Shown: positions 33,667-55,389 of the stretch, in pieces
Layout: the number at the start of each line of letters is the position of its first letter
How positions within the stretch are numbered: the first letter of the stretch is position 1
DNA from: Anaerobutyricum hallii
Lineage (GTDB): Bacteria; Bacillota; Clostridia; Lachnospirales; Lachnospiraceae
Length of the DNA: 64,000 bases
Direction of reading: 5' to 3'
NCBI RefSeq assembly: GCF_900209925.1
Contig: NZ_LT907978.1
Location: forward strand, 1,857,219 to 1,921,218
Notes under the pieces: generated by a model
Seen by the model: the letters and a program-made list of their open reading frames with translations, nothing else
Databases searched by the model: none
What the model was told of the DNA's origin: nothing
Translations under genes and position numbers: made by a program

Positions 33667-35058
33667 TTATCTATTTTTATCTTGCTTTGGCATATTTTTA
33701 AACTCAAGAAATGCCATGATAATAGTGACAACTGCTGATAAAAAGTCGGCAATCGGTCCACAATAAATACAGCCTTCAATTCCCATAAATCGTGGCAGAA
33801 TCAAAAGCAATGGTATGAAGAAAATAATCTGTCTTGTAAGAGACAGGAAAATACCCTTTGCCGGCTTTCCGATGGATGTAAAGAACGTGGATGTAATTGG
33901 CTGCAAGGCATCTAACCAGATAAAGAATAAGAAGATACGGAAGAAGCGTACTCCAAATGTAAAATATTCTGGCTCTCCTGTTCCAAAAAGTCCAAGAATC
34001 TGTCTCGGGAAAATCTGAAACAGTACAAAAGAAAAAATAGAAATTATTACTCCTGTTAATGCTGCAAGTCTATATGCTTTACGTACACGATCATACTTTT
34101 TAGCGCCGTAATTAAAACTCTCCACCGGCTGACTTCCCTGAGAAAGTCCGATTACAATAGAGAAAAATATCTGATTTACTTTAATTACGATTCCCGCACA
34201 TGCCAGAGGAATCGCTTCTCCATAAATGGAAGATGCCCCATAAAAAGTCAATGAATTATTCATTACGATCTGCACGAGCATCATAGCAATCTGATTAAAA
34301 AAAGAAGCCATACCTATCTGTGCAGTTCTTCCAATATATTTTATCTGTGGATAAAAATGCTCTTTTTTTAACGGAATCGTTTTAAAATGAAGCAGATAAT
34401 GAATAACAATAATCGCAGAAATAATCTGTCCGATAATCGTCGCCCAGGCTGCTCCAGCCATTCCCCATCGAAAGACCATAACAAATACCGCATCTAATAT
34501 TGTATTAACAATCGCACCGACCAGATTACAAATCATCGCCATCTGTGGACTTCCATCCGCACGAATCAGATGACATCCTCCGGCTGTTAAAATCATAAAT
34601 GGAAAACCGATTGCCGTAATACGTACATACGTCTGTGCATAGGGAAGTACGTCACCCGGAGCACCAAATCCTTTTAAAAGCGGCGTTAAAAATATCTCTG
34701 CAATTCCAAACAAGATTACACCGCTGCCGATCAGACATACAATAGCATTTCCAACAAAATATACTGCTCTTTCACTGCTTCCCCTTCCCATATTTAAATT
34801 AAAACAGGACGCACCACCGATACCAAACATTAAGGCAAGCGCAATGCAAGATGTTGTTAACGGAAACGCAACGTTCGTCGCCGCATTGCCAAGCGTACCG
34901 ACTGCCTGTCCGATAAATAACTGATCAACAATATTATATAAAGCACTGACAATCATCGCAATAATACTTGGAACAGCAAACTTAACCATTAAAGAAGCGA
35001 CAGAAGCCTCCCCCAATGGGTTTCCCGCCTGTATATTCTCTTTTTGTTCTTCACTCAT
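33667..35058 (-). CDS. MATE family efflux transporter (1)
   Basis: The 463-residue protein has twelve predicted TM helices in two halves with the MATE/DinF-like start EASVASLMVKFAVPSIIAMIV and NIVDQLFIGQAVG. These pumps expel drugs or metabolites using Na+ or H+. The start is the ATG after GAGAGGAAAT. It is 15 bp upstream of moaA but has no evident functional tie to it. Substrate unknown. Confidence 0.88.
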   Translation of the reverse strand: MSEEQKENIQAGNPLGEASVASLMVKFAVPSIIAMIVSALYNIVDQLFIGQAVGTLGNAATNVAFPLTTSCIALALMFGIGGASCFNLNMGRGSSERAVYFVGNAIVCLIGSGVILFGIAEIFLTPLLKGFGAPGDVLPYAQTYVRITAIGFPFMILTAGGCHLIRADGSPQMAMICNLVGAIVNTILDAVFVMVFRWGMAGAAWATIIGQIISAIIVIHYLLHFKTIPLKKEHFYPQIKYIGRTAQIGMASFFNQIAMMLVQIVMNNSLTFYGASSIYGEAIPLACAGIVIKVNQIFFSIVIGLSQGSQPVESFNYGAKKYDRVRKAYRLAALTGVIISIFSFVLFQIFPRQILGLFGTGEPEYFTFGVRFFRIFLFFIWLDALQPITSTFFTSIGKPAKGIFLSLTRQIIFFIPLLLILPRFMGIEGCIYCGPIADFLSAVVTIIMAFLEFKNMPKQDKNR

Positions 35059-38412: not shown

Positions 38413-38724
38413 TGTAAATGCGATGAAGAGGAATAGTAGAATGATGAAAGCATCCAGAGAGCTGCTGGTTGGTGCGAAGCAGTAGTAGACATGATTTGAA
38501 CTCGCCTCCGAGCAGCCTGTTGAACCGCATGATTGCAGTAGGCAGCGCCGGAAATCTGACCGTTATAACAGGAGGATATAAGACTTTTGAGTCCGTATCT
38601 ATAATGAGTGCATACCTTACTTTTTAAGTATCGTGTGAATAAGAGTGGTACCGCGGAATTATTTTCTCCGTCTCTTTTCGGCATCTGCCTTTTGGTATTT
38701 GCCATTAAAGAGACGGAGTTTTTT
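38413..38724 (+). ncRNA. T-box leader (Leu) before leuA
   Basis: Stem I shows the AGAGAGC...GGTGCGAAGC distal motif. The probable specifier codon is CTC (38501..38503, after GAA), read by tRNA-Leu. The T-box sequence AGAGTGGTACCGCGG is at 38642..38656, and a terminator of CTCCGTCTCTTT/AAAGAGACGGAG (38666..38718) with a T-run follows. Uncharged tRNA-Leu would bind both sites, favour the antiterminator and switch on leuA. Confidence 0.93.
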
Positions 38725-53226: not shown

Positions 53227-53814
53227 TTACTTCACACACTCCATAATTATCGCTTCACATCTGTCATATCCAAGCTGTGAACTGTTCAGGCACAACGTGT
53301 AATTGCTGGCTTTTCCCCATTTTTGATCCGTATAAAAGTTATAATTTGTCATACGTCTTTTATCTGTGTCTGCCATCATTTTGACAGCTTCCTTCTCTTC
53401 TACATTATGTAAGTCCATGATACGTTGTATTTTTTCCGGCATATCCCCATGAATAAATACATTCAATACATCGTTCCAATCTCTTAGGATAAAATCTGCA
53501 TTTCGTCCAATAATTACACAAGACTCTTTTTCTGCCAATTCCAATATAACCTTTCTCTGTGCCTCATATACCATATCCTCAACGGATTTTCCTGTAATAT
53601 CACGTCCGGCAAGTGCATAGGCAAATAATCCTTTTTTGGGAGATAGCTCTGCGCTTTCCTGAATATATTCTGGTGATAAACCAGACTTTTCTGCAATCTC
53701 ACTAATGATATTTTTATCATAGTAAGTAATTCCAAGTTTTTTTGCAACTTCTTCCCCGATAAAACGTCCACCGCTTCCAAATTCTCTGCTGATTGTAATA
53801 ATTCTTTTTGCCAT
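53227..53814 (-). CDS. Cytidylate kinase-like protein
   Basis: The 195-residue P-loop protein starts KRIITISREFGSGGRFIGEE, the variant Walker A of the Cytidylate_kin2 family, and has Asp/Arg-rich lid residues (DKRRMTNYNFYTDQKWG). Substrate is unclear; members are distant from CMP kinase proper. It starts 13 bp after the MATE gene, with AGGAGGAACTGG upstream, so they share an operon behind the tandem hairpins at 55223..55353. Linkage of this family with MATE pumps is recurrent in Clostridia as far as I recall. Confidence 0.82.
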   Translation of the reverse strand: MAKRIITISREFGSGGRFIGEEVAKKLGITYYDKNIISEIAEKSGLSPEYIQESAELSPKKGLFAYALAGRDITGKSVEDMVYEAQRKVILELAEKESCVIIGRNADFILRDWNDVLNVFIHGDMPEKIQRIMDLHNVEEKEAVKMMADTDKRRMTNYNFYTDQKWGKASNYTLCLNSSQLGYDRCEAIIMECVK

Positions 53815-53827
53815 TTCCAGTTCCTCC

Positions 53828-55195
53828 TTAATTTAAAACATCGACCTTATTTTTTCTGATTTTCTTTAAAAATACATATCCTGCCAGACATGCAATGACT
53901 TCGGTAATCGGAAACGCCCACCAGATCAGGGAGATTCCCATCTGACCATTTCTGACAAATAAAGAAAAGACTCCTGCCAGTGGCAGAATGATAATAAGCT
54001 GTCTTAGAAGTGAAATAACCAATGATTCTATACCACCATCCAGCGCCTGATAAATTCCCTGATAAGCAACATTAATTCCCGCAAACAGAAAACTAATAGA
54101 AATCACTCTCATCGCACTGATAAAATATTCTCTTGACTGTCCTGCATTAAACAGCGTTGCAAAAGCTCCAGGGAAAATCTCTGTAATTGCAATTTCCAAA
54201 ATCATTAATACAATCGTATAGAGAAGTCCATATTTGATTCCATCCTGAATTCTTTTTTTACTTCTCATTCCATAAGCAAATGCAATGATTGGAGTAATCG
54301 CATCTCGCAGACCAAACGCAAGGAAGAGAACAAACTGCTGAACTTTATAAAATAACCCATAGGCTGTCTGCGCTGACGGATTGAACTTCAAAATCAGATT
54401 CATTACATAAACCATAATAGACATCAGAGCCTGAGCAATAATTGCTGGAAGTCCAATTGCATAAATTTCTTTTATAATACCAGTATCCGGCTTCATATAT
54501 TTCGCATCATGTTCAAATTCTTTATTCAATTTCATATGAAAAATGAACAGTAACACTGCGGATGCTACCTGACCAATTACCGTTGCATAAGCTGCACCTT
54601 TTACACCCATTTCCGGAACCGGACCGATACCATAGATCATAATTGGATCAAGAATAATATTTACAACTGCACCAACCACCTGTCCGATTGTAGAATAAAG
54701 AGAACGACCTGTTGCCTGCAATAACTTTTCAAATAATGAAAAGAAGATAATACCAAAAGAAATCACGCAGCATATCCTCAAATAGCTGACTCCCATCTCA
54801 AGCACTTCTGTATCTACTGTCTGCGATGAAATATATGCTTTTACCCCAAAGATACCAAACAAGAAACAAACCACATAAATAATCACACCAAGAAACAAGC
54901 TGTTTCCTGCTACCTTTGCAGCTTTTTTGCTGTTTCCCTGTCCGAGTGTCCTTGCAAGAAGTGCATTGGTTCCTACACCTGTTCCGATTCCCACCGCAAC
55001 CATAAGCATCTGCACCGGGAATACGAGCGTCAGTGCATTTAATGCCGCTTCACTTCCTACTCTCATATTTCCTACAAATGCACTGTCTACAATGTTATAG
55101 ACCGCCTGCAATGCCATAGATAGGATCATTGGAATTCCCATCTGGATCATCAGCTTATTCACTGACATATCTTTCATCTTGTTACTTTCTGCCAT
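53828..55195 (-). CDS. MATE family efflux transporter (2)
   Basis: The 455-residue twelve-helix pump starts [20 protein letters not shown] and has [20 protein letters not shown], typical of NorM/DinF-type MATE proteins. It is first in a two-gene operon with the cytidylate-kinase-like gene. Its leader RNA is unusual: the promoter (55361..55389) leads straight into two tandem terminator-like hairpins sharing a 12-nt loop. The second ends about 10 nt before the ribosome site AGGAG. This suggests ligand- or signal-controlled expression. Confidence 0.88.
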
Positions 55196-55222
55196 TTTGT
55201 TTTAGCTCCTCTCTTTTTGCAC

Positions 55223-55353
55223 AAAAAAAGTGTGTGCCTTGTCATATAAGCTGGACTTACGCTGACAGGCTACACACTTTTTTACGCAATATTAGTTTTT
55301 AACAAAAAAACGAGCAGCTGGTAAACTGGATTTACGCTTACTTGCTACTCGTT
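55223..55353 (-). promoter_or_regulatory. Tandem conserved-loop terminator hairpins (candidate riboswitch pair)
   Basis: In the leader RNA, hairpin 1 (55310..55352) has stem ACGAG/CTCGT, then TAGC/GCTG, an internal loop, and GTAA/TTAC with loop GCGTAAATCCAGT. Hairpin 2 (55230..55277) has stem GTGTGT/ACACAC, then GCC/GGC, an internal loop, and GTCA/TGAC with loop GCGTAAGTCCAGC. Each is followed by seven U. The stems differ fully, but the loop GCGTAA-R-TCCAG (55326..55337 and 55251..55262) and the architecture are kept. That pattern fits two copies of a regulatory RNA, not a plain terminator. Confidence 0.65.
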
Positions 55354-55360
55354 TGTTATA

Positions 55361-55389
55361 ATTATATTTCCTGTTTTTTAAAAAGTCAA
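55361..55389 (-). promoter_or_regulatory. Promoter of the MATE operon
   Basis: On the minus strand TTGACT (55384..55389) and TATAAT (55361..55366) have a 17-bp spacer, and the start point falls at the first base of hairpin 1. Confidence 0.75.

Follow-up and report, generated by a model that had tools for sequence, protein, structure and literature searches.

On the minus strand of a 64,000-nucleotide (nt) stretch of the Anaerobutyricum hallii genome (the window, hereafter), the leader of a gene for a MATE efflux transporter carries two terminator-like hairpins that share a loop. An initial annotation of this DNA had drawn attention to the hairpins and the U-run behind each, and folding, the sequence itself and a word search agree that they are real. 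Each hairpin is very likely a two-state attenuator, and the best reading of the element is a riboswitch class not described before, an orphan that would respond to a toxic small molecule. The features of the locus are as follows (aa, amino acids).

55384..55389, minus strand: -35 box TTGACT, from the sequence
55361..55366, minus strand: -10 box TATAAT, with a 17-nt spacer to the -35 box, ending 8 nt before hairpin 1
55323..55354, minus strand: predicted antiterminator/aptamer of copy A (coordinates located here, pairs defined on relatives)
55310..55352, minus strand: terminator hairpin 1 (copy A); fold z -7.6; 68 bits with covariance model R1 and 66.8 bits with R2, scores that are not independent because both window copies are members of the model seeds
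55304..55309, minus strand: U-run of terminator 1, 6 U, from the sequence
55248..55279, minus strand: predicted antiterminator/aptamer of copy B, with core GCGUAAGUCCAG at 55251-55262 and pairs as in copy A
55230..55277, minus strand: terminator hairpin 2 (copy B); fold z -7.8; 63.2 bits with R1 and 58.2 bits with R2, with the same dependence
55223..55229, minus strand: U-run of terminator 2, 7 U, from the sequence
55206..55211, minus strand: ribosome-binding site GAGGAG, from the sequence
53828..55195, minus strand: MATE efflux transporter gene, 455 aa, ATG at 55195; TIGR00797, 197.3 bits (cut-off 147.4)
53227..53814, minus strand: cytidylate-kinase-like gene; PF13189, 190.2 bits

Since the TATAAT hexamer ends 8 nt upstream of the stem, the transcript should begin about at hairpin 1, as had been proposed, and the ribosome-binding site does follow hairpin 2. 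The cytidylate-kinase-like gene is probably the second gene of the MATE operon; such a gene comes after MATE in several related loci and stands directly behind a hairpin in a few.

The hairpins fold at -22.3 kcal/mol (hairpin 1) and -29.2 kcal/mol (hairpin 2), and none of 200 shuffled sequences was equally stable for either. The loop common to both reads GCGUAARUCCAG. A window search for this loop as the word GCGTAARTCCAG, with one mismatch allowed, gave one exact match in each hairpin and no others; 0.13 matches are expected, and two were reached in 2 of 100 shuffles. The whole genome holds three exact matches, the third lying elsewhere in surroundings without a terminator fold. MatE domain matches in the A. 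hallii genome number 36 and correspond to 18 proteins, and strong matches to the element lie ahead of the window gene only; two further R1 matches in this genome are weak (E up to 0.1). A second MATE gene in the window (33808-34971, minus strand, two MatE matches) is without a strong element match.

A widespread hairpin family with a constrained 5' strand

Relatives were found with covariance models and with a sequence pattern. Ten hairpins from the genus and the family went into model R1, which at E up to 0.1 matched 125 of 397 family genomes, spanning 121 of 334 genera. The best 150 of the 157 matches obtained were aligned, and 131 remained after removal of opposite-strand shadows. At E up to 0.001, the refined model, R2, matched 33 of 391 genomes sampled across the class and 6 of 299 sampled across the phylum, the window's genome included; at the same threshold model R3 had matches in 30 of 206 genomes of a second family. 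Among 20 class-level loci that were fetched, the strict core is present in 14, and 5 more have A instead of G as the first core base. A pattern scan of named genomes gave at least 120 stretches, and R2 (E up to 0.01) confirmed 75 of the 80 matches listed; Aquitalea and an acidobacterial metagenome-assembled genome are among the five listed matches without confirmation. By title, the listed matches come mostly from Lachnospiraceae, Oscillospiraceae, Ruminococcus, Eubacterium, Blautia, Roseburia and unplaced Clostridia, and many of the listed genomes are gut or rumen assemblies. Homologous hairpins, for which the initial annotation had suggested a covariance-model search, are thus abundant elsewhere. 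The same pattern had one match in a viral collection, on an IMG/VR contig filed as viral (L330), where the order is hairpin, gene for a 79-aa protein (described below), hairpin, MATE; the contig might be the edge of a prophage or bacterial DNA filed wrongly.

Some of the low-scoring model matches are plain terminators: 14 of the 131 non-overlapping matches lack the strict core, a few of them being near variants. This much would suit the view that the hairpins are ordinary constitutive terminators, alike by chance or through recent duplication. As a general account, that view runs strongly against the core being kept in 210 distinct copies, the strongly non-random gene context and the covariation of two exclusive folds (both below), and we find it scarcely credible.

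Alignment A3 holds 88 sequences, A4 110 distinct sequences and A7 25 rows from the second family, whereas A6 re-uses A3 and A4; the alignments overlap, A3 and A4 in part, and A7 shares 4 of its 25 places with A6. A3 and A4 together come to 201 rows, 193 of them distinct and 186 parsed, and the full set of 221 hairpins reduces to 210 distinct ones. A near-copy of the window locus (L032) was left out of the gene, promoter and pair-statistics counts; with it included there are 85 loci, 63 with MATE.

Across relatives the conserved element consists of the core GCGUAARUCCRG together with GURGC, separated by a variable segment of 4-10 nt (186 parsed hairpins). The stems of the two window copies had been called unrelated, and the loop had been thought to be kept without the stem. 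Both points fall on the 5' strand: in the two copies it ends in G-N-GUAGC (ACGAGUAGC and GUGUGUAGC), and the G, GU and GC of the G-N-GURGC word are kept in 87 or 88 of 88 related hairpins. Over nine stem positions, the 5' strand carries 13.9 bits of information compared with 9.3 bits for the 3' strand, and the invariant U10 of the 5' strand stands opposite A 43 times and opposite G 41 times. The two strands of the stem thus evolve differently, and the 5' strand apparently serves a purpose beyond stem pairing. An internal loop followed by a 4-bp stem, noted earlier as an architecture common to the two window hairpins, does not extend to the family, since the UAAR/YUUA pairing at the terminator tip is missing from many relatives when these are read by eye.

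Two mutually exclusive folds supported by covariation

The first fold is the terminator. In A3 its stem is paired in 93.6% of 791 cells, compared with 12.8-52.0% when the 3' partner is slid, and six of the nine pairs show changes on both sides; in A4 the stem is paired in 92.6% of 984 cells. Among 209 folded hairpins, 6 had no closed stem, and in 194 of the other 203 at least five of the 8 nt that follow the stem are U.

The second fold, our main result, is a hairpin of the 5' half alone, in which P1 and P2 flank a conserved internal loop and the apical loop varies. P1 consists of the pairs S0:D2, S1:D1, S2:C12 and S3:C10 and P2 of S8:C2, S9:C1 and a1:b-1, and in the internal loop NGUR faces GUAARUC, with one R bulged. 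In copy A of the window, P1 is AAAC paired with GUUU around the conserved core GCGUAAAUCCAG (55326-55337). What had been described as a conserved loop is best explained as part of this alternative hairpin, formed from the 5' half of the terminator.

Covariation supports this fold. When named column pairs were searched in the 186 parsed hairpins, covariation emerged at three places: between the opening base of the stem and the one just past the core (S1:D1), between S2 and the final core base, and between the base that follows GURGC and the one that precedes the core (a1:b-1). Counted on alignments fitted to the terminator only, the cells of the alternative hairpin are paired in 94.6% of 610 (A3), 94.1% of 735 (A4), 95.4% of 656 (A6) and 98.3% of 175 (A7), against 22.3-52.6% in slid controls across the same alignments. 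For the number of cells paired, the number of cells changed on both sides and the covariation score, none of 500 shuffles was as high in any alignment. The number of pairs with changes on both sides is a weaker measure, equalled by 6, 19, 4 and 29 of 500 shuffles (A3, A4, A6 and A7, respectively), and the number of further pair types was equalled by 353, 0, 0 and 7.

Because the classes of copy A and copy B could mimic covariation, shuffling was done within first and later copies. In these position-stratified shuffles of the 210 distinct hairpins, 2,000 in number, the observed pairing was never reached for any of four pairs. S1:D1 is paired in 209 of 210 hairpins (185.9 in the shuffles) and occurs as A-U, G-C, G-U and U-A, the last in 5 of the 210. 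S2:C12 is paired in all 210 (205.4 in the shuffles), a1:b-1 in 153 (112.3, or 120.8 with S1 held) and S-1:D3 in 134 (95.5). Independent replacement types are thus seen: besides U-A at S1:D1, the second family has U-A for S9:C1 in 21 of its 25 rows, a pair that is C-G in the first family. Collectively, these data identify a conserved RNA fold. The strands S1-S3 and S8-S9 serve both folds, and S1 and S2 covary in both; the proposed aptamer fold and the terminator are mutually exclusive, a layout expected of a transcriptional ON switch with an aptamer of ~32 nt.

The position of the element relative to promoters differs between copies. A promoter-like score of at least 9 of 12 lies ahead of 136 of 152 first hairpins (the window locus and those relatives with enough upstream sequence), and 126 of these 136 have a -10 box whose end lies 7-11 nt upstream of the stem. 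First copies average 10.07, compared with 7.88 in shuffled sequence, suggesting that the first copy usually lies at the very 5' end of the RNA. For later copies a score of at least 9 is reached in 15 of 57, and the mean is 7.88 (shuffled, 7.57). An element that contains an inverted repeat and, in most first copies, coincides with the presumed start of transcription might instead be a promoter-proximal DNA operator bound by a repressor. Later copies, however, lie downstream without a clear promoter signal, the stem has frequent G-U wobbles, which are a signature of a single strand, most copies are followed by a U-run, and the S1:D1 covariation needs a second RNA fold. Thus, we regard an operator as very improbable.

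The copies are arranged in several ways. Single copies are common, tandem copies are frequent, and some copies stand ahead of separate genes in one operon; tandem arrangement, which had been offered as the basis of a sharp switch, is therefore frequent and not essential. Stacked pairs of hairpins lie directly before MATE in 26 of 84 loci of the family set (relatives found in family genomes) and in 17 of the 75 loci listed in the pattern set, and two hairpins flank a recognised gene in 5 of the 84 and in 15 of the 75 listed, respectively. Some operons have one copy before each of two or three genes; in L172, for example, the order is hairpin, CarD, hairpin, 79-aa, hairpin, MATE.

Two side observations concern individual copies, both read by eye. 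Just upstream of a later copy, five loci (L059, L077, L081, L085 and L086) share a further hairpin-like repeat, AGUCCGGU ... AUCUGGACU or a less pronounced version, whose 3' arm carries CUGGA, complementary to UCCAG of the core. In L041 (1501-1550, minus strand), a lone copy with a promoter-like site faces the apparent 3' end of a convergent MATE gene and has no long open reading frame (ORF) close behind it on its own strand; it is possibly a free-standing short RNA.

Pump and stress genes behind the element

Gene labels were assigned by blastp against seeds within 500 nt, and the family and pattern sets partly overlap. In the family set, 89 of the 115 hairpins have MATE as their next recognised gene (26 through a second hairpin), and the rest precede the 79-aa gene (6), DUF2798-like genes (3), CarD (2), cytidylate-kinase-like genes (2), rubrerythrin (1) or other genes (11), with no room in 1 case. 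Among the matches listed in the pattern set, comprising 108 hairpins, MATE follows 62 (17 through a second hairpin), CarD 14, the 79-aa gene 12, DUF2798-like genes 10, rubrerythrin 2, a cytidylate-kinase-like gene 1 and other genes 3, and 4 have no room. Both gene types that the initial annotation had suggested looking for behind relatives, MATE and cytidylate-kinase-like, were therefore found. The seeds belong in Pfam to CarD_TRCF_RID, Rubrerythrin, MatE and Cytidylate_kin2, and the L200 seed to DUF2798; for the L122 and L095 seeds Pfam gave no match, so that the label DUF2798-like is partly a reading by the analyst.

More distant loci show a similar mixture. Seed genes at the 20 class-level loci are MATE (6), DUF2798-like (3) and CarD (2), and further ORFs there include a UvrA-like protein (L254) and MFS transporters (L255, L262 and L263). 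In the second family, 5 of 30 loci (L324, L325, L326, L328 and L329) were dropped from the gene count with the core missing or truncated. The 25 that were read, with the proteins of 8 checked in Pfam, have MFS (8), CarD-like (8), MATE (2), GHMP kinase (2) and DUF2798 (1) genes; one of the remaining loci has a dCache protein 299 nt downstream, and 3 are not assignable. At the two GHMP kinase loci (L310 and L316) the element lies 135-169 nt before a gene resembling ispE. The element is thus the 5' leader of several non-homologous genes.

The 79-aa protein (MKRIKAACICQTLHF...) is conserved among loci (L125:248-484, L198:698-934, L133:5571-5807, L175:6206-6442 and L178:3430-3666), and its gene is often under its own copy of the element, just ahead of the MATE gene. 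A scan of one member gave no hit in Pfam or NCBIfam. At L178, ThiD- and ThiC-like ORFs were seen by eye from 4133 onward, about 730 nt and more downstream, behind the hairpin and the 79-aa gene.

A candidate sensor within the terminator

We propose that each hairpin is an intrinsic terminator that can be switched, with a small sensor built into its 5' half. Transcription would start at about the first base of the first hairpin, and the first ~32 nt, complete before the 3' strand emerges, would fold as the sensor hairpin. With the signal bound, this hairpin would hold the 5' strand, leaving the 3' strand partnerless and allowing readthrough into the pump gene (ON). With the signal absent, the 5' strand would pair with the 3' strand, the terminator would form and a short RNA would be released (OFF). 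We infer that the signal binds to the internal loop and that binding turns the gene on. At the window locus two copies stand in series and both would have to be passed, so the response should steepen; two copies in series acting as independent gates are called "pseudo-cooperative" and linked to a steeper response in a review (PMC9481103), and a sharp switch from the two copies may be expected by inference. These features agree with the earlier proposal of a cis-regulatory RNA that acts on termination and, judged from sequence, looks built for ligand or protein binding.

Since the same element precedes unrelated pump families and stress genes, its signal may be a toxic small molecule. We consider it reasonably probable that the element is a small-molecule riboswitch. 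Our fullest reading, to which we give a probability of roughly 0.5, is that it represents an undescribed riboswitch class of about 32 nt, which would be among the smallest, in which the first half of the terminator is the aptamer. It would be repeated gene by gene in gut Clostridia to run a detoxification regulon against one toxic gut compound, comprising MATE and MFS pumps, CarD, rubrerythrin, a UvrA-like protein, DUF2798-like proteins and the 79-aa protein.

Several observations weigh against this reading. The third P2 pair, a1:b-1, is missing in 57 of 210 hairpins, including both window copies, where A stands opposite A (copy A) and C opposite A (copy B). S3:C10, S8:C2 and, in the first family, S9:C1 hardly vary and so prove little. 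The further-pair-type measure in A3 (11), reached by 353 of 500 shuffles, shows nothing, and the shuffles as a whole ignore relatedness while the alignments overlap, so that significance is overstated. By nearest-neighbour calculation the sensor hairpin has a median energy of +1.1 kcal/mol (-3.5 to 5.1), compared with a value of -22.2 for the full terminator; left free, the 5' half favours other folds (median, -3.7 kcal/mol). Being unstable alone, the sensor hairpin would need a ligand, a protein or tertiary contacts; this suits an unliganded OFF state and is no proof of a ligand. Finally, a series of terminators within one operon is also found in the protein-controlled EutV system (PMC3369931).

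The main rival is an RNA-binding protein: the 5'-half hairpin would be the site of an antiterminator that itself senses stress, like LicT or SacY on RAT or EutV on its dual hairpin. The calculated instability of the sensor hairpin fits such a partner. So does design, because the RAT antiterminators of the Sac/Bgl proteins are single hairpins of ~30 nt that overlap a terminator, and ANTAR/EutV antitermination places terminators ahead of several genes through an operon (PMC3369931). Candidate proteins were looked for in 34 strong-match carrier genomes, chosen from the 125, and in 14 others of the window's family without a match at E up to 0.001, one of which (G254) had a weak R1 match (E 0.057). 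The CAT_RBD domain (PF03123) is absent from 22 of the 34 carriers, the window's genome included, and the Sac/Bgl RAT possibility is down-weighted on this account. All 34 of the 34 carriers have ANTAR proteins, but so do 14 of the 14 other genomes, and their presence therefore does not discriminate; the 48 genomes encode such proteins in open frames of 180-262 aa, one copy in 45 genomes and two in 3. ANTAR/EutV targets require two mini-hairpins per site, with hexaloops that have A at position 1 and G at position 4 (PMC3369931), whereas the element has one hairpin per site and a variable loop instead of a fixed hexaloop, and an ANTAR target RNA was rejected. The 79-aa protein occurs in only 8 of the 48 genomes, all 8 among the 34 carriers and none among the 14 others, and is therefore not a general regulator; no search was aimed at novel RNA-binding proteins or adjacent regulators. 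On balance, we judge control by a protein unlikely.

The riboswitch reading was also set against known RNA classes. In a window scan with Rfam 15, a check that the initial annotation had suggested, no family reached its gathering score on the element. A local Rfam scan (E up to 10) gave 11 matches, all below cut-off, the highest at 20.7 bits versus 60, and a scan of 12 related loci (E up to 1) gave one match below cut-off, outside the element (L060, 88-304). The only gathering-level Rfam match in the 64 kb is a T-box leader (38414-38678, plus strand, 129.5 bits); it lies away from the element, and a T-box reading was rejected. The loop may also bear some likeness to PyrR or rRNA words. Literature searches, including the main texts of PMC11109978, PMC6429828, PMC8632094, PMC8040213 and PMC7266159, gave no published name for the element, which may be an unnamed entry in a supplementary list. 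PMC12934955, which the searches also brought up, is unrelated.

Nearest in mechanism is the HMP-PP (thiS) riboswitch, whose small aptamer and terminator have a strand in common; binding presumably precedes completion of the terminator, and a reporter was switched on (PMC6478431). That aptamer, which regulates thiamin genes, comprises P1, P2 and a putative pseudoknot (PMC6478431), whereas the classified genes here are pump and stress genes and the element has no Rfam match. No thiamin gene lies directly downstream among the classified genes, and HMP-PP is set apart by its description, not by a consensus.

Guanidine riboswitches deserve separate mention, since the element could be a member or variant of guanidine-II, guanidine-IV or Gd4v. 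MATE genes are listed under guanidine-IV and Gd4v (PMC7736828, PMC9788692), and like the element these classes lie upstream of MATE genes in Firmicutes and are terminator-based (PMC7736828, PMC11611296, PMC9788692); Gd4v, itself an orphan, is enriched in gut bacteria. Those two classes, however, depend on a pair of dissimilar hairpins that a pseudoknot or kissing loop connects, whereas here one self-sufficient hairpin is the unit, a single hairpin precedes the gene in many loci, and further copies repeat the core. Watson-Crick pairing from core to core runs to 2 nt (A-B and A-A) or 4 nt (B-B), and to 4 nt once G-U is admitted; by this test the two window loops are unlikely to kiss. The main genes of guanidine-IV and Gd4v are SugE or transaminase, as opposed to MATE, MFS, CarD, DUF2798-like and rubrerythrin here (no search was aimed at SugE or transaminase), and the two classes, like HMP-PP, are distinguished by description and not by consensus. 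Guanidine-II (mini-ykkC) resembles the element in having two similar short tandem hairpins with a conserved apical sequence before efflux genes. Its paired hairpins depend on conserved ACG trimers in their loops (PMC7736828), whereas GCGUAARUCCRG and GURGC are conserved here and single copies are common; without ACG-trimer loops or an Rfam match, identity with guanidine-II was rejected, in line with the initial annotation. Membership in a known guanidine class is, in our estimate, quite improbable.

The hairpin family is large, has no match in the Rfam library searched and precedes pump and stress genes of gut Clostridia, where its members are apparent on/off switches. As a candidate for a very small aptamer with a built-in terminator, the element would define a regulon that gives a shared context to the unclassified 79-aa protein, the DUF2798-like proteins and the CarD-like regulator. 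If the riboswitch reading is true, a switch widespread among common gut bacteria sets the timing of expression for stress genes and several unrelated pump families, and the ligand would name a toxin that these bacteria meet. The export substrates of these MATE and MFS pumps would also become a directly approachable question.
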